Virus record (IMG/VR): IMGVR_UViG_3300025313_000065
Span: 1-38,031 of that record
DNA: 38,031 nt
DNA from: a virus
Direction: 5' to 3' (one strand)
The position numbers were made by a program, and so were the translations under genes. Below, piece by piece: positions 4,161 to 35,358 of the stretch (positions are counted from its first letter, which is position 1; each line of letters begins with the position of its first letter). The notes beneath the pieces are model-generated. The model was not told the DNA's origin, did not search any database, and saw nothing but the letters and a program-made list of their open reading frames with translations.

Positions 4161-4505
4161 TCACTGCACCTCAATCAGTAAATTAGGTCGTGGCATTGAG
4201 GCAATCATGCCACCGAAATAGATAAACGTCGTTCCGCATGGCTCGATTTCCGTTGCCTCTGATTTGCCTGAGATGAATTCGTTGAATCGTCCAGTGTCCG
4301 GAATCCAGGCAGCGTTTTCCAATTGCACACCTTGAGCTGATACCGCGCGTACTGTACCGACATAGTAGTGTGTCGCAGTCTGGATAAAGTACTCCTTGCC
4401 AATCTCGAATGGATGATCTTGTGCCGGTCGCAAATTCACATTTTGAGATGTTTGAGATTTCGGAACATAGATTGTTCCGTCAATCGTGATTTCATCTTTT
4501 TTCAT
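4161..4505 (-). CDS. Phage protein of unknown function, 114 residues
   Basis: The protein starts MKKDEITIDGTIYVPKSQ and has a beta-rich core, GKEYFIQTATHYYVGTVRAV, followed by VQLENAAWIPDTGRF. I recognise this arrangement from uncharacterised phage and mobile-element proteins: a small beta domain with the motif AAWIPDTGRF. The ATG has GGGAG eight bases upstream. It lies between the 253-residue gene and the nuclease repeat. No catalytic residues stand out. Confidence 0.65.
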   Translation of the reverse strand: MKKDEITIDGTIYVPKSQTSQNVNLRPAQDHPFEIGKEYFIQTATHYYVGTVRAVSAQGVQLENAAWIPDTGRFNEFISGKSEATEIEPCGTTFIYFGGMIASMPRPNLLIEVQ

Positions 4506-4780
4506 TTTGCTCTCCCTGTTTCAACTTGGATAATTGCAAGTTTGGGCGGGCCGGGCTTGATACCGACTGAGACAGAATAGATGGTTACTGTCGCCGCGCA
4601 TCCGACGGTTTACTTCCAATCACTGAGACTGGAGTCGCTCCCACCCCCGGTCGGTCCGGGGTAACAAGTCTGACTGCTTCATCGTGCAGTTTCTCGCGCC
4701 ATCGGTATCTCGCGTGTCCATCCACGCCGCCGCCCAAACTTTTCGCTCCGCTCTGCTCCGCTCAACCCTGCTTCATTTTG
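4506..4780. other. Intergenic segment with a GC hairpin, no convincing gene
   Basis: This gap lies between two minus-strand genes. It contains a hairpin with six GC pairs, CCCCGG (4645-4650) and CCGGGG (4656-4661), and a 5-base loop. A minus-strand frame at 4585-4737 (TTG start, 50 residues) and a start-less frame ending in the ATGA at 4505 are both open, but neither has a good start and ribosome binding site together. A small gene broken by a frameshift cannot be excluded. Confidence 0.4.
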
Positions 4781-5542
4781 TCATGCTCTTCCAAATGACG
4801 CGACCACCGCGTCGATCTCATCAGCCGTCACGCCGATTTCCTCGCTGCGCTTCGCCAGCGCGGCCTTGACGATCTTCTCCGGCTTGTCGGCATATTCGGC
4901 GGCCAGTTGCGTACGCAGCTTTGCCCAGTCGGATTCCATTCCGACCCAAGCTGCTGGCACTGAGCCGTTCGCGCTCGCGACTTTCGGCGTAGGACTTGCA
5001 GGATTGTCGCCGGCCGCTGCGGCCTCGGCGGCTTTTTCGTTCGCGTATTTCTCAGCGACGAACGCGATGAGATCGGGAACCTCTTCGCCGGCCTGATTTG
5101 TTTTCGCCTTGCCCTTCGCCTTGCGATTCGCGAAGGTCTCATCGAATTCGGGCTTGAACGAAACGCGCGCCCAGTGCTCGCCGAGCTTGTCGATACCGGC
5201 CGTGCCCAACGCCGGCAGAACGATTTCCTTAAACTCGCGCGTCCACAACGAGACGGTGAAATAGCGGTCGCCTTGCCAGGTCACATCGCGACCTTTGACC
5301 GAATCTTTATAGACAATCGTCTGGAATGACGCGGTGGGCTTACCGAGGGCTTGTGCTTTTTCTTTCGCCGCGGCCTTCGACTTCGCGTTGTCAAAGTCGC
5401 AGGGGAAAAATGAATCGGCGTTGGACAGACCCGCAACGAAAACTTTGTAGCCCGTTTCGAGCTTGACTTTGCCGATGATGCCGCCGCCTGAGGATTCCTG
5501 TTGCGCGGTGGCGGTTAATTGACTGACTAGACTGTTTGACAT
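4781..5542 (-). CDS. Early phage protein of unknown function, 253 residues
   Basis: The chosen start is ATG 5542, with AAGAGGAG upstream; a longer in-frame reading would overlap the regulator gene. The protein begins MSNSLVSQLTATAQQESSGG and has an ordered region to about residue 150, including YKVFVAGLSNADSFFPCDF, GRDVTWQGDRYFTVSLWT and EHWARVSFKPEF. A linker rich in Ala and Pro and a helical C-terminus follow. It is the second gene behind the early promoter and lies in the same operon as a Sak4-like ATPase and an XPF-like nuclease. A single-strand-DNA-binding or recombination-accessory role is plausible from context only. I cannot name a family. Confidence 0.6.
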   Translation of the reverse strand: MSNSLVSQLTATAQQESSGGGIIGKVKLETGYKVFVAGLSNADSFFPCDFDNAKSKAAAKEKAQALGKPTASFQTIVYKDSVKGRDVTWQGDRYFTVSLWTREFKEIVLPALGTAGIDKLGEHWARVSFKPEFDETFANRKAKGKAKTNQAGEEVPDLIAFVAEKYANEKAAEAAAAGDNPASPTPKVASANGSVPAAWVGMESDWAKLRTQLAAEYADKPEKIVKAALAKRSEEIGVTADEIDAVVASFGRA

Positions 5543-5591
5543 ATCTACTCCTCTTGAATTTTGTTCCCCTAGGGGGCGTTCGGGGATTGAG

Positions 5592-5795
5592 TTAGGTGAC
5601 TTTGATCTTGTTTGCCTTGCCATCTCCTTTGCCAATTGATAGCTTCGCGGACTGCGCTCCCTCAATCAGAGGCAATACGTATTCAAGAATTTGCGTGATT
5701 GCATCTGCTTGAGTAACCTTGCCGCGCGCTCTGTCGAAGCGATCAAAAAGGTCACTGGAAATTCTGACGTTGAGTTGTCTGAATTCTTCTTCCAT
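5592..5795 (-). CDS. Ribbon-helix-helix-like regulator, 67 residues
   Basis: The N-terminus FRQLNVRISSDLFDRFDRA, followed by TQADAITQILEYVLPLIEG, fits the strand-helix-helix order of Arc/CopG-type DNA-binding proteins, with a basic lysine-rich tail. The ATG at 5795 has GGGAGG six bases upstream. It is the first gene of the minus-strand early operon and lies next to the divergent promoter region, so it could control both early and late promoters. The fold assignment rests on pattern only. Confidence 0.6.
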   Translation of the reverse strand: MEEEFRQLNVRISSDLFDRFDRARGKVTQADAITQILEYVLPLIEGAQSAKLSIGKGDGKANKIKVT

Positions 5796-5824
5796 TGCGC
5801 CTCCCGATATAGTTTTGCACTCTA

Positions 5825-5853
5825 TTTCTACTACATTTCTGCTAGTTTGTCAA
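5825..5853 (-). promoter_or_regulatory. Sigma70-type promoter for the early operon
   Basis: On the minus strand TTGACA (5848-5853) lies 17 bases before TAGAAA (5825-5830). The -35 box is perfect, the -10 box matches four of six. The first gene starts 29 bases further on and has a strong Shine-Dalgarno sequence. Confidence 0.6.
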
Positions 5854-6002
5854 GTGGCAATTTGCGTCAAGCCCAATCCTATGTGAAATCATACACGCGG
5901 GGTCATTTTCTCGCCTCTCAGGGGTTGTGGCGAGCAGGTTTTTGGAGATTTCGCTTAAGTTCCCTTATCTTCCCATGTTGGTTTTCGGCGCAAATTGGGC
6001 TA

Positions 6003-6031
6003 TTGCCAAATCCGGGAACGGGTAGTATAAT
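6003..6031 (+). promoter_or_regulatory. Sigma70-type promoter for the plus-strand operon
   Basis: TTGCCA (6003-6008) and TATAAT (6026-6031) are separated by 17 bases. The -10 box is perfect, the -35 box differs by one base. The first start codon lies 14 bases after the -10 box, which predicts a leader of only about eight bases. Confidence 0.65.
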
Positions 6032-6045
6032 GGTGGCATGGTAAG

Positions 6046-6180
6046 ATGAATGATCTCGTTTTCGCTTTCCTGTTCGGCCTGGCAATGGTGGTGATTATCT
6101 ACATCATCACCCGCATTGCAATCCAACACGAAAGAGACGATCCTCAACGATGGCTGCCCCCACCTCCCAAAATCAAGTGA
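6046..6180 (+). CDS. Single-span membrane microprotein, 44 residues
   Basis: The protein is MNDLVFAFLFGLAMVVIIYI followed by ITRIAIQHERDDPQRWLPPPPKIK. One hydrophobic helix covers residues 4-25 and a charged, Pro-rich tail follows. It is the first gene after the plus-strand promoter, with a very short leader and only a weak AAG upstream. Its end overlaps the next gene by 31 bases. The function is unknown; a small membrane modulator is a fair description. Confidence 0.55.
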   Translation: MNDLVFAFLFGLAMVVIIYIITRIAIQHERDDPQRWLPPPPKIK

Positions 6181-6806
6181 CTAAATTCTATGATGCCGTT
6201 CCCGCGTCTCACACACAAACTCGCGAGTTGGCACATGAGTTCACCGCGCATTTCATCGGCGCGCTGCCGGGCTTTGCATTTGTCGCGACGGTATTCATTG
6301 TCGCGTTGGGCGTAGCATCGTGGGCATGGATTGAAATGAGTTCATGGGTTTTGCGCACGATGGCGCTCGGCGCGTGCGGCGCGGCATTGGCTATCGGCGT
6401 GTCGTTTGGATTCTACACGTGGTTCGGCTTCGATACGCTGCGAGACGAGCGCAAGGACGTACAAGCTGAATCGCGCTTCCGGCAGGCGGAACTGGAGTTT
6501 CGCCTCGAGCAAATGCTAGACATGCCACTCTTGACAGATGGCGCGGGCAACGTAGGCCAAACACCTGATGCATTTGTAAACCACTTGGATGAGTTCGCCA
6601 ACCGGTTGAGCGTGTTTGGCGATGACGAGAAATCCAGGTCGCATTGGTTGAAGGCCGATGGCGCGAACGAGGACTATCGATTCAAGGACGGCCAGCGTAT
6701 CAGCCGGGGTGAGTACGAGCGCATCATCCGGGCATTGGAGATTCGCGGCCGGCGCAAAGGTAGAGCCGGTGAGCGCTCTACCCCACTCTCGGAAATGGAA
6801 GGGTAG
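6150..6806 (+). CDS. Two-span membrane protein, 218 residues
   Basis: A cytoplasmic start of about 35 residues is followed by hydrophobic segments at about 36-60 and 68-92, then a charged helical region (residues 95-130, QAESRFRQAELEFRLEQML). The C-terminus holds ISRGEYERIIRALEIRGRRK, which resembles a short helical binding motif. ATG 6150 lies inside the end of the upstream microprotein, so translation is likely coupled. No known family recognised. Its position ahead of the packaging genes gives no clear job. Confidence 0.6.
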   Translation: MAAPTSQNQVTKFYDAVPASHTQTRELAHEFTAHFIGALPGFAFVATVFIVALGVASWAWIEMSSWVLRTMALGACGAALAIGVSFGFYTWFGFDTLRDERKDVQAESRFRQAELEFRLEQMLDMPLLTDGAGNVGQTPDAFVNHLDEFANRLSVFGDDEKSRSHWLKADGANEDYRFKDGQRISRGEYERIIRALEIRGRRKGRAGERSTPLSEMEG

Positions 6807-15853: not shown

Positions 15854-16572
15854 TCTATCCTGACTTGACGATTTGCATTCTGACCTGCCGCCGTCCCTGG
15901 TATGCTGCCATGACGCTGAGCGCGTGCAAACAAATTCAGTATGCGGGCAAGGTGAAATTCCACATCGCGGATGGTGGAAGCAATCCGAACGACTTTCAGT
16001 ATTTTCAGAAGATTGCGGACGGGCAGGAATTGACGATTGAGACCGTGGGCAATCCGTCCTGGATGATAAATTCCTGCGCGCATCATGGTGGCGAAATCTG
16101 GGTTATGGCGGTCGATGATATGTGTCCGCGTTTTCCATTCGACATTACACCCGATGTAGATTTGCTACTGACCCATCCCGAAATAGGATGCGTGCGATTC
16201 TCGCGGTTGGCATTCTGGGGAAGCTTGGGAGAAGACCCAGAAACGAGCGCGGACTTGGTAAAATGTGACGGGATGCATTGGTGGCGTATCGACAAAGCCC
16301 GCAGCAAGGATTCCTACATTTGTAGCGTCGGATTTCATCTGTATCATCGGCGATTCTGGGATACGTATGGAGACTTGGAAAAACCGGCGCGCGCGAATGA
16401 GTTGGGACACGCGGAGATGATTGCAGGTGAGCGATTTCGGATGAAGGACGGTCCAACGATTGCCGTACCGATGCGTTTCGGTCAAGACGCCGGCGAGTTT
16501 CGCGAACCGATCTGGCATTTCGGAATCTGGCGCACGGATGAACTGACGAAAGTCGCTCGCTCGCGATTATGA
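15850..16572 (+). CDS. Family 2-like glycosyltransferase (GT-A fold)
   Basis: The chosen ATG 15850 overlaps the previous stop (ATGA) with GAGG upstream, giving 240 residues. DLTICILTCRRPWYAAMTLS at the start is the usual first strand and helix of GT-A enzymes. KFHIADGGS supplies the nucleotide-binding acid. WVMAVDDMC at 84-92 supplies the DxD-like metal site (Asp89-Asp90). The C-terminal half has a LYHRRFWDTYGDLEK segment like the acceptor part of family 2 enzymes. The acceptor and sugar are unknown. Confidence 0.75.
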   Translation: MIYPDLTICILTCRRPWYAAMTLSACKQIQYAGKVKFHIADGGSNPNDFQYFQKIADGQELTIETVGNPSWMINSCAHHGGEIWVMAVDDMCPRFPFDITPDVDLLLTHPEIGCVRFSRLAFWGSLGEDPETSADLVKCDGMHWWRIDKARSKDSYICSVGFHLYHRRFWDTYGDLEKPARANELGHAEMIAGERFRMKDGPTIAVPMRFGQDAGEFREPIWHFGIWRTDELTKVARSRL

Positions 16573-17105
16573 AACTGCATCTATGTTGCGGTGATGTATA
16601 CCTACTCGGTTACGTCAATGTAGATCGAGTGGGCTGTATCGTGAATGGCAACGTCATAGATTATTATCCGACTGACTTGGCACACTATTACCAGAACCGC
16701 ATTATCGGATTTCCGAAAACAAATTTCATTGATGAACAAGTTGACGTAACTCGGTTTCCATGGCCGTGGCTGGATGTAGAAGAAATCGTGATGATTCAGG
16801 CCATCGAGCATTTTACACCAGAAACCGCGCGGCGAATTGTCTCGGAAGCCAGACGAGTTCTAGTTCCAGGCGGGAGATTACTGATTGATTTCCCGGACAT
16901 CGAAATGACTGTGAGACAATTTGCCCAAAGCGATTCAGTAAAATGTATGCGCTATATCTACGGGAGCGAGCGCAATCCACACCTGAATGGTTTCACGCGT
17001 GAGAGTTTCATTGAATTGTTGGGGCAGGGCTGGAACGGAATTGAATTCAGGGAAATTGTTCAGCATGACTATCCAGTAATCGGCTGTGAGGCAATCAGAC
17101 TGTGA
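16569..17105 (+). CDS. SAM-dependent methyltransferase-like protein
   Basis: A 178-residue protein starting MKLHLCCGDVYLLGYVNVDR, which is motif I of the Methyltransf_11 type (usual form LNLGCGxxxLPGYxNVD). Later motifs are EEIVMIQAIEHFTPETARRI and LVPGGRLLIDFPDIE. Such short enzymes occur in glycan and capsule gene groups. One Gly of the G-C-G loop is Cys here (LCCG), which is tolerated in this subgroup. The start overlaps the upstream stop by four bases, and its own stop overlaps the GTG of the next gene. Confidence 0.8.
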   Translation: MKLHLCCGDVYLLGYVNVDRVGCIVNGNVIDYYPTDLAHYYQNRIIGFPKTNFIDEQVDVTRFPWPWLDVEEIVMIQAIEHFTPETARRIVSEARRVLVPGGRLLIDFPDIEMTVRQFAQSDSVKCMRYIYGSERNPHLNGFTRESFIELLGQGWNGIEFREIVQHDYPVIGCEAIRL

Positions 17106-25242: not shown

Positions 25243-26724
25243 ATGTCGGAACCATTGAAATCTTCAGAGGGCAGTCTATTCCTGCAACTCTCCCCGGACG
25301 CCGCGCCAGAGTATTTCGGATGCGCCGACCTGGGAGACTTGCCCGCGCCCGTCGGTGACCAGACGCCGATCTACTGTCGCGGCACGGATGGGCTCGCCCG
25401 CATCATCGGCTCGACGCGCGCCGCGCCCGCGCTCGCGACGAGCAATATCACCGCGCTGATGTTCCCGGAATCGGACGTGATCGACCGTCTGAAGAATTGC
25501 ACGTTTGCGCTCTACGCCATGACGCGCAACTGCGGCAAAGCCGGGATTTTCCCGAACTATGTTCGGGGAACTATCGCGCATCATGCCCGTGTGACGAATC
25601 GCAATCGTCAGAACCTCGTCAAGATGGAAACGGATGACAAGGTTTTGCGCGTACTCGACCTGTCCTACTGGGGCATTTACGAGATTCGCGAGATCACGGC
25701 GGTGCGCCAGACGATTGCGGAAACGCGCGCGCTGAATGACATCGTTTTCGACATGCTCGATGAGTGCGCCGGCGACTGCGGTCCAACGGTCGAGCGCGAC
25801 GACAACGGCTTCATTGTCACAGACGGCGGAGTTGCTTCGCCGCCGAGCGATGCGGACGTGTGGCTCACCACGGACAAGGGTTCGACCTGGGCGAACGCGA
25901 CCGGCGCGGTGCCATCACCGTTTACTGGTGGCGACATTCTCTCGGCGGTGCGTTTCCAGGTGGACAAGGATACGTATCGCCTGTTAGTGGCGAGCGGTCA
26001 AAAGGCCGGGAATGCACAAGTCGCGTACTCGGATAACGACGCCGCGACGTGGACGACCGTCACGGTCGGCGCAACGGCCTGGGAAGGCGCGACCCATTCC
26101 GCCGCGCTGTTCGCGCTGGACAAGTCGCACATCTGGTTCGCGACGAGTCACGGCCGCGTGTATTTTTCCAGTGACGGCGGCGCGAGTTGGGCTTCGCAAG
26201 CTAGCGCACTGACGGCGAGCTTGGCGCGTCCGTTGAACGCCGTGTCGTTCTTCGACGTGCTAAACGGTTACGCCGTTGGCAATACGGACACCATCATCAA
26301 GACCATTGACGGCGGCGATAACTGGAGCGCGGTTACGTCCCCATCATCCGCGGACAATCTTTTCGCGCTCGAAACGCTGTCGAAGGACATGCTGATCGTC
26401 GGCGCGAGCGGCGATGGATTGTGGAAATCACTCGACGGCGGCGATACGTGGACGAGCGTCATATTTACCGGCCAGGGAACCACTGGCACGGTGCGCGACG
26501 CGGACTTTGCGCCGGAGAATGAACTGGTCGGGTTTATGATCCACAACACGAGCGCGCCGGTGGGAACGATTCACCGCACCCTCGACGGCGGGATATCCTG
26601 GGAACGCATCACGACCCCGACGAACCTGGGTCTGAATGCGGTTGTAGCAATCGATGAGAATACGGCGTTCGCGGTTGGCGAAGTGCAAGGCGGAACCGGC
26701 GTCGTAATCCGCGTTTCGGGGTAA
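25243..26724 (+). CDS. Tail tube-like protein with C-terminal Asp-box beta-propeller
   Basis: A 493-residue protein with a strong AGAGGAGG site. Residues 1-190 look like a tail tube domain: the position is right, and MTRNCGKAGIFPNYVRGTIA and LDLSYWGIYEIREI fit major tail proteins. Residues 203-493 contain six Asp-boxes: TTDKGSTW (209), SDNDAATW (263), SSDGGASW (309), TIDGGDNW (354), SLDGGDTW (396) and TLDGGISW (446). The regular spacing of about 42 to 55 residues indicates a six-bladed propeller of the sialidase/Ycf48 kind. It would decorate the outside of the tail tube and could bind surface glycans. The sialidase active-site residues are not evident, so binding is likelier than cleavage. 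Confidence 0.7.
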   Translation: MSEPLKSSEGSLFLQLSPDAAPEYFGCADLGDLPAPVGDQTPIYCRGTDGLARIIGSTRAAPALATSNITALMFPESDVIDRLKNCTFALYAMTRNCGKAGIFPNYVRGTIAHHARVTNRNRQNLVKMETDDKVLRVLDLSYWGIYEIREITAVRQTIAETRALNDIVFDMLDECAGDCGPTVERDDNGFIVTDGGVASPPSDADVWLTTDKGSTWANATGAVPSPFTGGDILSAVRFQVDKDTYRLLVASGQKAGNAQVAYSDNDAATWTTVTVGATAWEGATHSAALFALDKSHIWFATSHGRVYFSSDGGASWASQASALTASLARPLNAVSFFDVLNGYAVGNTDTIIKTIDGGDNWSAVTSPSSADNLFALETLSKDMLIVGASGDGLWKSLDGGDTWTSVIFTGQGTTGTVRDADFAPENELVGFMIHNTSAPVGTIHRTLDGGISWERITTPTNLGLNAVVAIDENTAFAVGEVQGGTGVVIRVSG

Positions 26725-27611: not shown

Positions 27612-29915
27612 TTGGCAACCGAACAGATAGGTTTAGAGGCTGTCCTACGGGACGCGGATTTCCAACGCGGACTCGCGGCGTATATACGCGGGGTTGACCA
27701 GGCGACCGGCAAAACCCAGGAAGGCGCGACGGGTATGTCAGTAATGGAGCGCGCCTCCACCGCGCTGGGCTCAGGTCTGTCAACCGTCGCGACGATTGCG
27801 GCGGGCGCGCTAACGGTTGGAATCACGGCGGCGGCAGCGGCGGTTGCTGGCTTTGCTCTTGCTGCAAAGACTGGCTTGGATGTAACAAATTCTATTGCGA
27901 ATGATTTAGATTCGCTTGGAGATAAATTTGGCTTGAACGCGGAGCAAGCCGGCGGTTGGGCGTTCCTGATGAAGCGGGTTGGCTTGACCGTTGAAGAAGG
28001 TTCATCGGGATTCGGTTTTTTTATTCGCGGACTGGATGCCGCTAATGACCGTCTGAAAACTGGCAAAAAAGAGTTGACTCCCTTTGAACAGTCCCTGAAG
28101 AAACTAGGAATCAGTGCTTTTGACACTAAAGGGAATCTGAAAACCTTTGAGCAAGTTCTGCCAGAGATTCAGTCCTCGCTTAAACAAATGAAGGATGGAA
28201 CAGCAAAAAGCGCACTCGAAATGGAATTATTTGGCAAATCGGGTGGTAAGTTCCATGATTTCTTAAATCAAGACATAGATATCAAACAAGCTTTGCAAAT
28301 CGTTGATGAAAAGGGATTGAAGCTAACTGATGAACAGGTCAAAGCGGCGATTGATTTGCAAATCGCGCAACGAGATTTAAGCGCGAGTTTAGAGGGCATT
28401 TGGAATCAAATCGGCATAGCGATTCTGCTGATCCTGAAAGATTTGACAACCGTGATCACGAAGGACATTCTGCCGGCATTTTCAACCTGGGTTAAGGAAC
28501 ATGCGCCCGCGTTGAATCAGGCTCTACGCGATATCGGCAAGTGGATTATCGAAGAAGCGCTACCTGCGCTTATTGATATGGGTCGATGGATTCAGAAAAA
28601 CTTGATACCATTCATTCGCGATATCATTAAGTTAGTGCAGGAGAACTGGCCGAAAATCTCGAAGGCGATTTCCGACGCGTGGAAGATTATCAAGCCGATT
28701 CTGGAAAAGTTAGGTGAATTCCTGTTCGGTCTCATCGATACGCAGAAAAAGACCCAGGCGGACGCGGCGAAGACCTGGAAGCAAATTTCCAAGTTCATTG
28801 AGGATGCATGGAAAATCATCGCGCCGATCCTCATCAAGATTTTCAAGGAATTGGACAAATTCCGAGACGAGGTTCAGCCGAAACTCGCGAAGGCGTGGGA
28901 TAATATCAAAACGAAGATTCAGCAGACCTGGGATTTCATATGGGATAAGATCATCAAGCCCATCGTCACCACGATTCAGAAATTCATTGAAGACCATCAC
29001 GAGGAAATCGAGAAAATCATCGGTGGCGCGTGGAAGCAAATCGAGGGGATATTTACCGTGGCGTGGTCGGCGATTAAAGGCATCGTCAAGGTCGCGCTGG
29101 ATATATTGAGCGGAGATATGGAAGCAGCCGGCGCGGACTGGCAGGAGATGATGAGTGGCATTTGGTCAGGCATTCAACTCATCTTCAGCGGCGCATGGGA
29201 CATTTTGCGGAATACTGTCGTCGCTGGACTAATCGCGATCCTGACCGCGATCTCCAATCAAGCCACAAGTATCCTCAACACGCTGCTCGCGCCGTTCAAC
29301 AACGCGATTGCCGCAATCCAAAATTTGAATTGGTCGGCGGTCGGCACAAGCATTGTCAACGCCATCACGACTGCGCTCAACAACGCGCTGAACGTTGGCG
29401 GTGCGGTGATGAACGCCATCATTAATCTAGTCACTGGGATTCGTGACCAAATTGCCGCGCAGTTCGCGTTTCTGTCACCGAACAATATCCGCGATGCCAT
29501 TGGGTTCGTGATCGGCAACGCAATGAACGCGGCCAGAGACGTTGGCTATTTCCTGTTGCAGGTTTACAACACAGCGGTTGGCATCTTGCAGGCACTAGCA
29601 GATCGTTTGATCATCGCGCCGCTCCAGGCGGTGGTGAACGCGTTCGGTACGATTCTGGCATATGCACTGGACAGCGTATTGCGACCGCTTGGTTTGCAGG
29701 ACTTGAACCCGTGGAAAAACTATCTCCCCGGCGGTGGGCTTTTCCCGTCGCAACTCATGCCGGCATTTGCGGGAGCGGGTGCTGGGAGTTCGTTCGTCAA
29801 TTCCAGCGCGATCACCAACAATTATTACAACCTGAATATCAGTTCGCTCGCGCCGACCTCGACGTTAATTTCCGATTTCGGGATTATGAAGTCGCTCGCG
29901 CAGGGTGGGGGATAG
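27612..29915 (+). CDS. Tape measure protein
   Basis: A 767-residue protein that sets tail length, starting at TTG 27612. The N-terminal part (1-50) is charged, followed by an Ala-rich hydrophobic segment at 56-90 (GALTVGITAAAAAVAGFALA). Residues 95-260 match phage tail tape measure proteins (NSIANDLDSLGDKFGLNAEQ, SALEMELFGKSGGKFHDFL). The centre contains Trp/Pro-marked helical repeats such as AWKIIKPILEKLGEFLF and TWDFIWDKIIKPIV, and the end is Gly/Asn-rich. The usual scale of about 0.15 nm per residue would give a tail near 110 nm. Confidence 0.88.
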   Translation: MATEQIGLEAVLRDADFQRGLAAYIRGVDQATGKTQEGATGMSVMERASTALGSGLSTVATIAAGALTVGITAAAAAVAGFALAAKTGLDVTNSIANDLDSLGDKFGLNAEQAGGWAFLMKRVGLTVEEGSSGFGFFIRGLDAANDRLKTGKKELTPFEQSLKKLGISAFDTKGNLKTFEQVLPEIQSSLKQMKDGTAKSALEMELFGKSGGKFHDFLNQDIDIKQALQIVDEKGLKLTDEQVKAAIDLQIAQRDLSASLEGIWNQIGIAILLILKDLTTVITKDILPAFSTWVKEHAPALNQALRDIGKWIIEEALPALIDMGRWIQKNLIPFIRDIIKLVQENWPKISKAISDAWKIIKPILEKLGEFLFGLIDTQKKTQADAAKTWKQISKFIEDAWKIIAPILIKIFKELDKFRDEVQPKLAKAWDNIKTKIQQTWDFIWDKIIKPIVTTIQKFIEDHHEEIEKIIGGAWKQIEGIFTVAWSAIKGIVKVALDILSGDMEAAGADWQEMMSGIWSGIQLIFSGAWDILRNTVVAGLIAILTAISNQATSILNTLLAPFNNAIAAIQNLNWSAVGTSIVNAITTALNNALNVGGAVMNAIINLVTGIRDQIAAQFAFLSPNNIRDAIGFVIGNAMNAARDVGYFLLQVYNTAVGILQALADRLIIAPLQAVVNAFGTILAYALDSVLRPLGLQDLNPWKNYLPGGGLFPSQLMPAFAGAGAGSSFVNSSAITNNYYNLNISSLAPTSTLISDFGIMKSLAQGGG

Positions 29916-29916
29916 C

Positions 29917-29988
29917 ATGAGGTGGATTTATGCACTGGATCGTTTTCATCCCACTTATCTTTATGGCGGGAAGTGGAACCATGCCTAA
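29917..29988 (+). CDS. Possible 23-residue leader peptide
   Basis: ATG 29917 lies two bases after the tape measure start-stop junction, with GGTGGGGG upstream, and reads MRWIYALDRFHPTYLYGGKW then NHA. Its stop overlaps an ATG at 29981 that is an alternative start of the distal tail gene. It could be a coupling peptide or merely the shadow of the distal tail gene's N-terminal extension. Confidence 0.25.
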   Translation: MRWIYALDRFHPTYLYGGKWNHA

Positions 29989-32140
29989 CCCGACCGTTCA
30001 CAATCCACGCTATGAGATCGTTACGCCGGATGGTTGGACGTTCGAGTTCGCGCCGCCGAATTATGCGGTAGACATCGGGTTCTTCGATGGTGGGGAACTG
30101 CCGCCGATTCAGCATCAGACCCAGGTTTTGTATCGGCAACCTGGCGCACTCTTGCAGAGTATTTCGATTCAGCCGCGCGTGGTGACGATCACGGGCGTAC
30201 TGAACGCGAAAACGCGCACGGAGTTGCACGAGTTGCGGGCGCGCTTGTGGAAGGCATTGCGTTGGAATCGGACGCTGGATGATCCGCCCGCGCCGTCCGT
30301 ATTTCGCTTTATTTTCAACGAACGGGTTCGCGAGTTGAACGTATTTCTGTTGTCCACGACGACCCAGGACGTGGGGACGGAAGAGACGAAACAGAACGCG
30401 GTCGTGCGGCTCGTGGCGTACGATCCGCTGTGGTATGGAGCCGCGGATCAATCCGCCAACCTGGCCACGTATCAGAACCTGAGCGTGGCATATATCGCCG
30501 GGAAGATCAACGGACTATGGAATTCGATGGGCGGCGGGGCAAATGGTGATATTTATACTATGGCGATTGCTCCGAATGGCGATGTATATGTAGGTGGTGC
30601 ATTTACAAGTATCGGTGGCGTAGCAGCAAATAGAATTGCGAAATGGGATGGTAGTACGTGGTCGGCTTTAGCGGCGGGGTTTGCAACAAATGTACTTACA
30701 ATTGCAATCGGGCCAGATGGAAAAGTTTATGCCGGGGGATTAACCAATCGCTTGGACTATTGGGATGGAGCAGCTTGGAATACAACTGGCACTGCTCCGA
30801 ATGGCTCGACACGCGCGCTGGCTGTTCATCCAACTACGGGGGACATTTACGCCGGGGGAACGTTTACCACAATTGGCGGCGTGGGGGCAAACCGAATTGC
30901 TCGCTGGAACGGCAGTGCGTGGTCGGCTCTAGGAACCGGCGGGGCGGACAATGCCGTGAGAGCAATTCTTATAGCAAAAAGTGGAACGCTTTATGCTGGT
31001 GGAGATTTTACCTCGATGGGCGGCGTTGCCAACACGGATGGACTTGCCTCTTGGAATGGGACAACTTGGGCTAGCGTCGGTAATACAAATGCAGTTGATG
31101 TCTATAAGTTTGCAGAGCATCCAGATGGAACCATTTACGCAAGTGGAATCTTTGCAACAATCGGCGGTGTTTCTGCCAACAATATAGCGAAATGGAATGG
31201 TGTTGTTTGGACACCTCTCGGCTCCGGTGTCAACGCAGCTTGTTGGTCTCTGGCTGTTTCTTCGGATGGACTATTGTATGCCGGTGGACTCTTCACTTCT
31301 GCAGGAGGACTTTCGCTGGCTGACCGTGTTGCCGTGTGGAATGGAACAAGTTGGGCTCAGTTGGATATTGATTTTCCGGGTACTCCGCTTGTTTATGCTA
31401 TCGGATTATTCGGTGCGAATCTTTACGTGGGCTTTGACACCACCGGGACAGCAGTTGTATCAAGCCCAACATCCACTGGGATTGACATTGATGGTGATTT
31501 TGAGTCCTTTCCTATTTTCACCCTCACCGGCCCTGGCACATTGCAATGGATCGAGAACACGGACAGCGCGAAAACAATGACGTTCAACCTCTACATCAAT
31601 GCCGGCGAGACCGTCACCATCGACCTGACCGCCGGTAACAAGTCCATCGTGAGTGACTGGCGCGGCAACCTGTTCCCCTACACGCCGCTCATTCCCAGTT
31701 CCGATTTTTCGACGTGGGCGCTGGAACCTGACCCCATCGCGGCGGATGGGCTGAACACAGTCGCGCTCATGATGACTGGCACGACGCCAACGGAAACGAA
31801 TGATAACAACAACCAGTTGAGCGGCTGGTCGAGCATCACCGGCATCACGCCATCCAACACTGACGCCGGCGGAAGAATGTACGCGAACATCATCGACCAA
31901 GGCGGCGGATTCTACAGCGTGAACCTCTACGACGATTCCGCGCGCACGCATCGCGTCGGATACACCGCCAGCTACAACACCAACGGGGCGAAAACCGTTC
32001 TGCCGGATAACGCGAGCGGGCTCGGCGGGACAATCACCGTGGACGCGCGCGTTGCCGCCGATTCCGATATCGTGGTTTTCTTCGCGACCGCGAAAGTAGA
32101 ATGGCGCGACGCGTACTTGAGCATCGACGAGGGAATGTGA
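29930..32140 (+). CDS. Distal tail protein with inserted beta-propeller
   Basis: 736 residues from ATG 29930 (GAGGTGG upstream). Residues 18-190 match the N-terminal ring domain of siphovirus distal tail (Dit) proteins: QPRVVTITGVLNAKTRTELH, RARLWKALRWNRTL and RLVAYDPLWYG. The galectin-like C-terminal part resumes at about 510 (GIDIDGDFESFPIFTLTGPG). Between them, residues 195-505 hold six repeats of the form GGxFTxIGGVxANRIAKWNGxxWSALGxG, a propeller. Residues 600-736 form a further beta domain. The N-terminal 17 residues are hydrophobic and unusual for Dit, so ATG 29981 (MPNPTVHNPRYEIV) may be the true start. It joins tube to baseplate and, through the propeller, may bind the host surface. 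Confidence 0.75.
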   Translation: MHWIVFIPLIFMAGSGTMPNPTVHNPRYEIVTPDGWTFEFAPPNYAVDIGFFDGGELPPIQHQTQVLYRQPGALLQSISIQPRVVTITGVLNAKTRTELHELRARLWKALRWNRTLDDPPAPSVFRFIFNERVRELNVFLLSTTTQDVGTEETKQNAVVRLVAYDPLWYGAADQSANLATYQNLSVAYIAGKINGLWNSMGGGANGDIYTMAIAPNGDVYVGGAFTSIGGVAANRIAKWDGSTWSALAAGFATNVLTIAIGPDGKVYAGGLTNRLDYWDGAAWNTTGTAPNGSTRALAVHPTTGDIYAGGTFTTIGGVGANRIARWNGSAWSALGTGGADNAVRAILIAKSGTLYAGGDFTSMGGVANTDGLASWNGTTWASVGNTNAVDVYKFAEHPDGTIYASGIFATIGGVSANNIAKWNGVVWTPLGSGVNAACWSLAVSSDGLLYAGGLFTSAGGLSLADRVAVWNGTSWAQLDIDFPGTPLVYAIGLFGANLYVGFDTTGTAVVSSPTSTGIDIDGDFESFPIFTLTGPGTLQWIENTDSAKTMTFNLYINAGETVTIDLTAGNKSIVSDWRGNLFPYTPLIPSSDFSTWALEPDPIAADGLNTVALMMTGTTPTETNDNNNQLSGWSSITGITPSNTDAGGRMYANIIDQGGGFYSVNLYDDSARTHRVGYTASYNTNGAKTVLPDNASGLGGTITVDARVAADSDIVVFFATAKVEWRDAYLSIDEGM
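30512..31445 (+). repeat. Propeller-coding repeats inside the distal tail gene
   Basis: Six coding repeats of about 130 to 150 bases. Five carry a recognisable GGxF(T/A)xxGGV and all carry W(D/N)G and a Trp eight or so bases further on. The stretch is distinctly richer in A and T than the sequence on both sides, and its codons end in A or T more often. This fits recent insertion or exchange of the segment. Confidence 0.7.
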
Positions 32141-33313
32141 GTGGGCGCGGAATTTTCCATCTGGTTTCTGCATCCGGCGAACGGGCTGACGATTGCCTTC
32201 ATCGAACAGTTTGCGGAACTGTCCTATACCAAAGTGGTCAACGCCGTAGGCGCGTTCACCCTCAAAGTTCCAGTCAACGCGCTTAAGATTGTACCTCTGG
32301 TGCCTTTCCTGCCGGGAATAACGCTCGAATTCGAGACGGTGATTGAACAGGACACACGCATCGTGATTTGGCGCAAGCCGGCGAACGGCGTACGCGCCAT
32401 CGATTTCGTTGGATTCGTGCGATACGTCGAAAAGAAAGCGGAAAATGACCAGGTCTATTTCGTCATGTCGGGCATGGATTTGAACTATTTGCTGGATTCG
32501 CGCATCGTGGCCTATTTCGCCGGGAGCGCGCAGGCAGACAAGACCGACCAGGCCGACGACATGATGAAAGCGATCGTACGGCAAAACATTGGCTCGGGCG
32601 CGACGGATCTGAACGGTGATACCTCGCGTGATCTTTCGTCGCGAGGGTTGACGGTGCAGGCCGATGTGGGGTTGGGAAATTCCATCAGCAAAGCGTTCGC
32701 GTATCGCAATGTCCTACTCGTTCTACAGGAAATCTCGGACGCAAGCCACGAGACAAGCGAATCGGGTTCCGTTTACTTCGGGATCGTGCCGCTGAATCAA
32801 GGTTGGGAATGTGAATTCAGAACAAACTTGCAGCAATGGGGACTGGATCACCGCTATCCATCCGGCGCAGCGGGCGCGGTCATTTTCTCGTTAGAATTCG
32901 GGGACTTGGCGGACGTATCGCGTTACACGGATTGGCGGCAAGAGACGACCTACGTTTACGCTGGCGGCCAGGGTGAGAATACCTTACGCGATATCCAGGT
33001 CGCGAGCGACACCGGACGCATCGGCGCATCGCCGTTCAATCGCCGTGAGGTTTTCGCCGACGCGCGCAACGTGACGACCAGCGCGCAGGTGCAAGACGCA
33101 GCAGAAGCGGCGTTGCGTGAGGGGCGGCCGCGCAATCTATTCTCCGCAAAATGGGTCGATGCGACGAAAGTTTACGGACGCGATTTTAACTTTGGGGATT
33201 ACATCACGGCGGTTTACCTGGGTGAGACCGTGGATTGTCGAATCGATGCCATCGTGGTGACAGTCGTTGGAAGTGTCGAGCGTGTAGACATTAATTTGCG
33301 GAGTGAGTCTTAA
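32141..33313 (+). CDS. Baseplate hub protein (ReqiPepy6 Gp37-like)
   Basis: 390 residues from GTG 32141, directly after the distal tail stop. FSIWFLHPANGLTIAFIEQF, AVGAFTLKVPVNA, GFVRYVEKKAENDQ and GMDLNYLLDSRIV follow the plan of Gp37-like hub proteins (tail-associated, lysin-like Tal fold without a hydrolase part). The C-terminal half includes RREVFADARNV and YGRDFNFGDYITAVYLGETV, seen in the same family. It likely closes the tail tip. Confidence 0.8.
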   Translation: MGAEFSIWFLHPANGLTIAFIEQFAELSYTKVVNAVGAFTLKVPVNALKIVPLVPFLPGITLEFETVIEQDTRIVIWRKPANGVRAIDFVGFVRYVEKKAENDQVYFVMSGMDLNYLLDSRIVAYFAGSAQADKTDQADDMMKAIVRQNIGSGATDLNGDTSRDLSSRGLTVQADVGLGNSISKAFAYRNVLLVLQEISDASHETSESGSVYFGIVPLNQGWECEFRTNLQQWGLDHRYPSGAAGAVIFSLEFGDLADVSRYTDWRQETTYVYAGGQGENTLRDIQVASDTGRIGASPFNRREVFADARNVTTSAQVQDAAEAALREGRPRNLFSAKWVDATKVYGRDFNFGDYITAVYLGETVDCRIDAIVVTVVGSVERVDINLRSES

Positions 33314-34023
33314 TGCAGTCTGAACAGGAATTGTGGCGCGAGATTGAACGGCTGAAGCGAATCTTAGATGTTCTGCATACGCAGGATTCTGCTGTCCCGG
33401 CATGGCGTAACTTGGGCGTGGGAACTGGAACCTATGCAAGTGCTTCTACGTTCACTGTCGTCGGTGATTTCACTGCATACATCAGAAAAGGGACGCGCAT
33501 CAAATGCACGAACTCCGGCACGAAATATTTCGTCAGTGCGACCGATTCCACTTTTGGAGGTGGAAACACAACCGTTACGGTTTTTGTCAATACGGATTAT
33601 GTCGTTGATAATGCGGCGATTACTGCAATACAATTTTCATACTGTGATCCTCCGGATTATCCGGGCTGGTTCAACTTTGCGGCGAATCCGCAGGGCTTTA
33701 GTGTCCAGCCGACGAACGTCGAATACCGTTTCTGGGTGATTGGAAAGATTTGCCATGTCCATTACTCAGAGAATACTAGTGGTACTAGCAACTCTACGAA
33801 TTTTACTTGTACTGCGCCGGTGGTTTCATCGAACCGGGCTGACTATGCCGCGAGGCAAATCATTGCCAGGTATCTCAATAACGGAACCGGCTCAACCGTT
33901 CCCGGTGTCGTAACAATTCTAACCAATTCGACGACCATCACTTTGAACACAGACGCAGCTCTAAATGGGTGGGCAGCGGCAAGTGGGAAGCGCGCATTTT
34001 TCGAGCTGGAGTATGAATATTGA
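33313..34023 (+). CDS. Tail appendage protein, 236 residues
   Basis: A short N-terminal coiled coil (EQELWREIERLKRILDVLH) is followed by a beta domain, ASTFTVVGDFTAYIRKGTRI, then KYFVSATDSTFGGGNTTVTV. This TFTVxGDxTxxxxxGxxIK pattern is common in phage tail fibres and baseplate proteins. The final 100 residues are Asn/Ser/Thr-rich. It overlaps the hub gene by one base. Probably a trimeric baseplate or fibre protein. Confidence 0.65.
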   Translation: MQSEQELWREIERLKRILDVLHTQDSAVPAWRNLGVGTGTYASASTFTVVGDFTAYIRKGTRIKCTNSGTKYFVSATDSTFGGGNTTVTVFVNTDYVVDNAAITAIQFSYCDPPDYPGWFNFAANPQGFSVQPTNVEYRFWVIGKICHVHYSENTSGTSNSTNFTCTAPVVSSNRADYAARQIIARYLNNGTGSTVPGVVTILTNSTTITLNTDAALNGWAAASGKRAFFELEYEY

Positions 34024-34734: not shown

Positions 34735-35358
34735 ATGAAGTCACGTCTCAAGCTCATCGGCAAGATTCCAGAGAGTTTCTACTCCGTTTTGAGTCACATG
34801 ACGGAAATACATGACGACTACTTACATGGACATAGTCAGCATGTATCCAATTTGGCCGTTGCGCTGGGAAAGCGGATCGGATTGCCGAAGGCTCAATTGC
34901 GATTTCTCTGTGCGGGCGCGCTGATTCACGACATTGGCAAGTTGGGCATTCCCGATTCCGTGATTAATAAACCTAGTTCGCTCACGCGCGCGGAACGGGA
35001 GATGATCGAGCGGCATCCCATCATGGGTTACGAACTAATTTCGCCGGTGGTGCATGAGCGTGAGGTACTCGAGATTCTACTTCATCATCACGAGAACTGG
35101 GACGGCACGGGCTACCCGGACAAACTGCGCGACGGTCAGATTCCGCTCGGCGCGCGCATCGTGCGCATTGCGGACACGTTCGATGCGATGACGGCACAGC
35201 GACCCTATCGGCCTGCGTTCACCGCGATTCAGGCGCTCGCGGAGATGCAGGAAGATAAAAGTTACTACGACGCGCGGCTCTTGGGGGAATTTGATCGGAT
35301 GATTCGTGAGCGCAATCATGCCAGGACTACTATTGCGCGCAAAGGCAAACGGTCGTAA
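34735..35358 (+). CDS. HD-GYP domain cyclic-dinucleotide phosphodiesterase
   Basis: A 207-residue stand-alone HD-GYP protein. Metal-binding and signature residues are intact: HGHSQHVSNLA (31-41), LIHDIGK with His65-Asp66, RHPIMGYELI with His94, HHHENWDGTGYPD (117-129) as the GYP signature, and ARIVRIADTFDAMTAQRPYR (140-159). The family hydrolyses cyclic di-GMP; the Vibrio V-cGAP members hydrolyse 3'3'-cGAMP. There is no receiver or sensor domain and no membrane span, so it would act as a free cytoplasmic enzyme. It is the first of the lysis-side genes, after the last tail gene. Phage use could be to change host motility or biofilm state, or to remove a defence signal. Activity and substrate are inferred. 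Confidence 0.9.
   Translation: MKSRLKLIGKIPESFYSVLSHMTEIHDDYLHGHSQHVSNLAVALGKRIGLPKAQLRFLCAGALIHDIGKLGIPDSVINKPSSLTRAEREMIERHPIMGYELISPVVHEREVLEILLHHHENWDGTGYPDKLRDGQIPLGARIVRIADTFDAMTAQRPYRPAFTAIQALAEMQEDKSYYDARLLGEFDRMIRERNHARTTIARKGKRS

Follow-up and report, generated by a model that had tools for sequence, protein, structure and literature searches.

A predicted seven-bladed beta-propeller in the distal tail protein of a group of uncultured phages, with contents replaceable among relatives

The window, i.e., the whole 38,031-nucleotide stretch of viral DNA analysed here (IMG/VR record IMGVR_UViG_3300025313_000065), encodes a putative distal tail protein (Dit) that is interrupted by a seven-bladed beta-propeller, as judged from homology and structure prediction. 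In this virus group the propeller insertion is long established and fixed, with replaceable contents, and the evidence leans towards the view that Dit-borne propellers around the tail tip serve as a host-adhesion device, the contents of which are exchanged among relatives. The features concerned are collected in Table 1; P0001 denotes the Dit encoded by the ORF at 29930-32140, and L-numbers denote loci of relatives.

Table 1. Genes, domains, and predicted propeller blades in and around the Dit gene of the window.
Feature	Position	Strand	Details
Tape measure protein, upstream of Dit	27612..29915	+	phrog_58 6.6e-22
Dit-like protein with propeller (P0001)	29930..32140	+	736 aa; hydrophobic over residues 1-17; ATG at 29981 as alternative start
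Ring (RIFT-related) domain	30002..30487	+	residues 25-186; hhalign to classic Dits E 1e-16
Blade 7, N-terminal part (composite, closing)	30473..30523	+	strands 182-198
Seven-bladed beta-propeller insert with linkers	30488..31471	+	residues 187-514; structural core 194-505
Blade 1	30551..30667	+	strands 208-246, DSSP of model
Blade 2	30692..30784	+	255-285; B-C loop shortened
Blade 3	30809..30928	+	294-333
Blade 4	30956..31075	+	343-382
Blade 5	31097..31216	+	390-429
Blade 6	31241..31360	+	438-477
Blade 7, C-terminal part (composite, closing)	31391..31459	+	strands 488-510
Galectin-like C-terminal domain, first part	31472..31777	+	residues 515-616; hhalign E 6e-9 global, 3e-7 local
Extra beta module within galectin-like domain	31778..32071	+	residues 617-714, ~98 residues
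Galectin-like domain, last strand	32072..32137	+	residues 715-736
Gp37-like protein (Tal/hub position), downstream of Dit	32141..33313	+	PF14594 5.2e-26; served as bait
Candidate tail fibre	33313..34023	+	position only; low GC3, 0.508

The Dit gene usually lies between the tape measure gene and the Tal/hub gene. The order tape measure, Dit, Gp37-like was found in the window and in the relatives whose contigs span both neighbours, except L011 (157-4608), in which the tape measure gene is followed directly by the Gp37-like gene with no Dit in between. At the profile level, P0001 was matched by the Dit family phrog_33 (1.7e-9) and by phrog_106 (minor tail proteins; 1.8e-19), the latter aligning residues 25-611 of the protein to profile positions 38-273 only, with the repeat region as the gap, and Pfam Sipho_tail scored 23.1 bits on it, slightly below the cut-off of 24.2. 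Sipho_tail matched three of the 16 family members at 0.001, and SPP1_Dit (PF22768) matched five of the 16, P0001 not among them. Moreover, the Gp37-like proteins of 18 phage records matched that of the window, and in each of five cultured-phage neighbourhoods among these, the tape measure and Gp37-like genes flanked a single unbroken protein of 284-302 aa. Without its propeller columns, the family alignment matched five classic Dits globally (E 1.2e-24, 262 of 286 columns), and the propeller columns alone gave no match to them (E ~0.5, vs 1e-16 for the ring alone). The flanks thus align end to end with classic Dits (hhalign), indicating that an otherwise ordinary Dit has received the propeller in its ring/galectin linker, and the division of a Dit at this place, as proposed in the first-pass annotation, is borne out. 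As judged from sequence comparison, P0001 is a siphophage distal tail protein carrying ring and galectin-like domains in the Dit gene position.

A hydrophobic, signal-peptide-like leader (29930-29980 in the window) also precedes the Dits of L007, L016, L020, and L024, and contains a lipobox-like LAGGC in L024; the choice of the Dit start codon is uncertain, with the internal ATG at 29981 as an alternative. The module of ~100 residues within the galectin-like domain occurs in one copy in the window and L007 and in two copies in L008 (4277-6988) and L016 (229-2982), and is absent from the L002 and L012-L015 types. Pfam gave no match in any of six proteins comprising the downstream fibre-like genes and the Dit C-terminal module.

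Six repeats are present where they had been annotated from the letters alone (30512-31445, corresponding to residues 195-505); five of them follow the complete pattern GGxF..GG..(A)N.(I)A.W(D/N)G, loosely kept, and repeat 2 is a shortened copy (GGLTNRLDYWDG). The repeat region of P0001 was matched by Pfam DUF5122 (PF17164; 9.2e-11, 42.3 bits vs a cut-off of 27), and the family profile matched designed SAKe proteins (2.9e-24) as well as kelch-like proteins. The propeller fold claimed earlier was recovered in an AlphaFold2 model of P0001 built on a 16-sequence alignment (pLDDT 82.5, pTM 0.75; at least 85 in all ten-residue blocks of 181-510 but one), with seven blades although the repeats number six: DSSP assigned six four-stranded blades and then a composite seventh formed by strands 182-198 and 488-510. 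Since the composite blade draws strands from both linkers, the two termini of the domain come together. Model residues 194-505 were fitted by VIA-align to seven-bladed propellers (Z ~28, rmsd 2.4-2.8), including a ribosomal RACK1-position chain (9hl9; Z 28.2, rmsd 2.4, 265 aligned) and the designed v22WRAP-T (7bif; Z 28.0, rmsd 2.8). With the full model, the best Foldseek match in BFVD was A0A6J5MW16, an uncharacterised 596-aa protein of an uncultured Caudovirales phage (E 1e-29, 21% identity, 636 alignment columns), which is probably the same kind of protein as P0001, together with numerous proteins annotated as minor tail or distal tail. No match was obtained by phmmer of P0001 against PDB sequences, and a tblastn search of named phages with the full-length protein returned two records, Leptospira phages LE1, matching in the propeller part only. 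Among the strand classes of the propeller, the inner A strands varied most (mean pairwise identity 0.28 vs 0.54 for B strands). In L030 (3592-4617), the blades are near-identical (self-identity 0.66 at lag 49 vs 0.12-0.24 in the other 22), which suggests recent blade amplification or homogenisation.

Relatives were collected mostly with baits independent of the propeller, namely the Gp37-like protein (10 loci with the single sequence, 20 with the alignment), the ring (15 and 8 loci with alignments), and the gene at the tail-tube position (24 loci; of 17 of these records that were tested, 12 contained a ring). A propeller shared the reading frame with 34 of 39 distinct rings, and the remaining five were four classic cultured-phage Dits and L109, which ends at the contig end; the fifth classic Dit, that of Ceridwen, was missed by the ring profile and so lies outside this count. 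Hence, wherever the uncultured relatives offer enough sequence (34 of 34 distinct rings), a propeller of one kind occupies one and the same site, with an insert length of 328-369 aa in all 16 relatives measured; in L047, only the beginning of a propeller is visible. This runs counter to a recent date for the acquisition as a unit proposed in the first-pass annotation, and the search for the same Dit with other inserts found none of another kind among the relatives, the empty site being seen only in distant cultured phages. L004 was discarded as a relative Dit, its match being limited to the propeller with no Dit present. Profile searches of genome contigs for a prophage or host with the Gp37 and ring alignments, as short, strict patterns, returned no relative, and a scan with the tape measure protein of the window matched solely its near-copy contig. 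On a 143-kb viral contig (3300031566_000001), the related tail modules L010 and L020 lie ~75 kb apart.

Replacement of the contents was clearest between L007 and L008. Their nucleotide identity was 99-100% over 4355-5054, which includes most of the ring, fell to 91% and then 75% across the ring/propeller border, and was 47-76% in the propeller (5255-6321), 77-88% in the galectin-like part, and, leaving gaps aside, 52-67% in the C-terminal module; the Gp37-like gene returned to 85-97%, followed by 43-86% over 1.7 kb of fibre-like genes (L007:8201-9957). Synonymous divergence (dS) was 0.185 in the ring, 2.6 (saturated) in the propeller, and 0.64 in the galectin-like part, and within the propeller the A strands differed most (0.35 identical vs 0.72-0.79 in C and D). 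From these sequences, the difference reads as a replacement of the propeller from a diverged relative rather than as point mutation. Positive selection alone was rejected, the synonymous sites being saturated as well, and so was an assembly chimera, each allele being found again on other contigs (that of L007 on L006 and L010 at 99.7% and 99.9% identity, that of L008 on L009 at 100%). Across the group of L007, L008, L020, and L016, the propeller changes far faster than either the ring or the galectin-like domain; in L028/L029, all parts, propeller and ring included, have diverged to an equal degree. The idea of an exchangeable module therefore holds for a propeller replaced within near-identical flanks, but only the same propeller type was seen and no other insert, and the clear mosaic is that of the single pair L007/L008.

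In trees of 23 proteins, the large clades recovered from the propeller were also those of the scaffold, so that exchange is not rampant. In AU tests, the scaffold data rejected the propeller tree (0.0014) and the propeller data rejected the scaffold tree modestly (0.0455); the ring and galectin-like parts rejected each other's trees (3e-4 and 9e-12), a conflict at least as strong, which indicates that recombination is not peculiar to the propeller. The window propeller was sister to that of L030 (support 93), while the scaffold joined the window to the L007 clade (support 100). The scaffold data rejected the pairing of the window with L030 (AU 0.008), and the propeller data did not reject the L007-clade placement (AU 0.355); an exchange in the lineage of the window itself was accordingly not retained, the L030 pairing being suggestive but not significant.

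The base composition of the insert differs from that of its flanks, as annotated at first, but the insert is AT-rich only relatively (GC 0.511 vs 0.579 and 0.558; whole window 0.551). The shift resides in third codon positions (GC3 0.402 vs 0.713 and 0.721 in the flanks), and a scan along the gene placed the codon-usage transitions near residues 200 and 515, i.e., at the domain borders. With the window's own codon usage, corrected for amino-acid make-up, as the expectation, the propeller had a codon-usage z of -10.6 to -11.5, the most extreme among the genes scanned, followed by the start of the tape measure gene (27612-28700, -6.2), the fibre-like gene at 33313-34023 (-5.1), and 16569-17105 (-4.7). 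Among 23 Dits including that of the window, the propeller z was below -3 in 10, below 0 in 16, and above +4 in L033 and L048. The insert is common to relatives, and 13 of the 23 lack a strong downward shift (z at least -3), two of them being shifted the opposite way, which tells in part against the first-pass annotation; with the shift missing or reversed in several relatives, it is no constant feature of the fold, and an intrinsic codon bias of the propeller was rejected. The two lowest values were those of the window (-11.5) and L030 (-8.9), which fits a shared propeller source, short of proof. Odd base composition can mark turnover of domain content rather than the age of an insertion.

Dit forms a hexameric ring. 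By homology, the ring of the window Dit would cap the tail tube, with each subunit carrying one seven-bladed propeller between the ring and galectin-like domain, and the whole propeller could hang from a single linker, its start adjoining its end in the composite blade. Six propellers would then be placed, exposed, around the tail tip, and their most likely role there is to bind a repetitive ligand on the host surface, probably a glycan, their avidity aiding adsorption alongside the downstream fibre-like protein. It is the likely presence of six tip copies, together with the faster change of the propeller and the co-located change of the fibre genes and C-terminal module, that points to host adhesion. 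The variability of the A strands is as expected if the channel or rims carry specificity, although weak constraint would look alike. In evolutionary terms, the propeller probably entered an ancestor of the phage group and stayed, after which recombination between related phages would swap same-type propellers while the flanks stay alike, and a swapped propeller can bring foreign codon usage, as putatively in the window.

A further set of repeats lies at the major-tail-protein position (25243-26724), where the C-terminal part of the protein has BNR/YCF48-type repeats (Sortilin-Vps10 2.7e-12, PSII_BNR 1.2e-9). In a low-confidence model, residues 149-493 matched seven-bladed propellers (Z 29.9), and residues 1-153 had a pLDDT below 50, too low to support a tube fold. 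Relatives of this protein were found in 10 of 20 related records and at 24 viral loci, and a second propeller along the tail is possible from the model. An extension, which we entertain only tentatively, is a lineage of uncultured siphophages with a whole distal tail of seven-bladed propellers, with one per Dit subunit, six at the tip, and a YCF48/BNR-type propeller coat along the tube, the tip propellers being diversified by recombination as a host-recognition repertoire.

Alternatively, the propeller could be a structural adaptor that docks fibre-like proteins or stabilises the baseplate without host contact. In phage p2, a Dit arm anchors the receptor-binding protein. Dit insertions can serve baseplate assembly (PMC7291167), the propeller was never lost among the relatives collected, and the joint variation of propeller and fibre-like genes in L007/L008 would also fit co-varying partners. 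A scaffold, however, should be conserved, yet among L007, L008, L020, and L016 the propeller far outpaces both the ring and the galectin-like domain, and we regard the adaptor as unlikely but not negligible.

Propeller folds are also common among sialidases and lyases, and the insert might be an enzyme, i.e., a propeller-type glycan hydrolase or lyase that clears surface polysaccharide. Virginiamycin B lyase and a sialidase/fucosidase entry from Akkermansia are among the structural matches, and phage endosialidases with propellers are noted in PMC4901313. At the sequence level, in contrast, DUF5122, Rax2, and kelch-like repeats were matched and no catalytic family, and the high variability of the inner A strands is unlike an active-site channel, making an enzyme improbable. 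Least credible is the exchangeable module of the first-pass annotation in the form of a recently acquired cassette replaceable by any other module, which is favoured by the sharp codon-usage change at both borders and by the L007/L008 replacement but sits poorly with the uniform type and site among usable relatives, the near-constant insert length, the shared large clades, and the lack, among the rings collected, of any that sits beside a different insert.

Under the host-adhesion reading, the closest parallels are the evolved Dits of lactococcal, lactobacillus, and streptococcal phages, in which a large internal insertion likewise leaves the classic core conserved around it (PMC7291167, PMC10688798). 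Inserts of carbohydrate-binding modules (CBMs) in evolved Dits alter which exopolysaccharide hosts are adsorbed (PMC10688798), and such inserts are presumed or shown to aid adsorption and vary between relatives, an adhesive role that we infer here for the propeller. Unlike those CBMs, which occupy loops of the galectin domain and are present or absent, the window insert is a propeller in the ring/galectin linker and is fixed across the whole group; the second, unrelated module of the window Dit does sit within the galectin-like domain. CBM_4_9 was found in four of the 16 family members and not among the matches of P0001. By analogy, the window Dit most likely works like an evolved Dit without the CBM feature that defines that family. 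A whole extra domain at the same site, separating domain I (the ring) from the C-terminal domain, is described for the distal tail protein gp58 of mycobacteriophage Corndog in a preprint (PMC13252515), although that insert is a Rossmann-like alpha/beta domain and not a propeller.

Propellers are also proposed receptor-binding domains in phi11 Gp45 (five-bladed), PRD1 P2 (distorted five-bladed), and phiKZ gp131 (C-terminal, seven-bladed), as given in PMC4901313. These are separate fibre or spike proteins, in contrast to the propeller of the window, which is built into the Dit ring; phi11 Gp45, for instance, is a separate trimeric receptor-binding protein with five blades and a helical stem, whereas the window has seven blades inside the Dit and no stem. 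In the literature covered, largely without subscription papers, no description of a propeller in a Dit was recognised. The propeller would thus be a third type of payload in the Dit ring, after CBMs and the Rossmann-like domain, and one retained throughout a group of uncultured phages. Moreover, L007 and L008, with a near-identical scaffold and a replaced propeller, offer a natural experiment on which part of the tail decides the choice of host in phages outside culture.

Finally, the late gene region of the window encodes an HD-GYP-like protein (34735-35358; HD_5, 150 bits; motif HHHENWDGTGYP), and a cyclic-nucleotide phosphodiesterase is unexpected among phage late genes.
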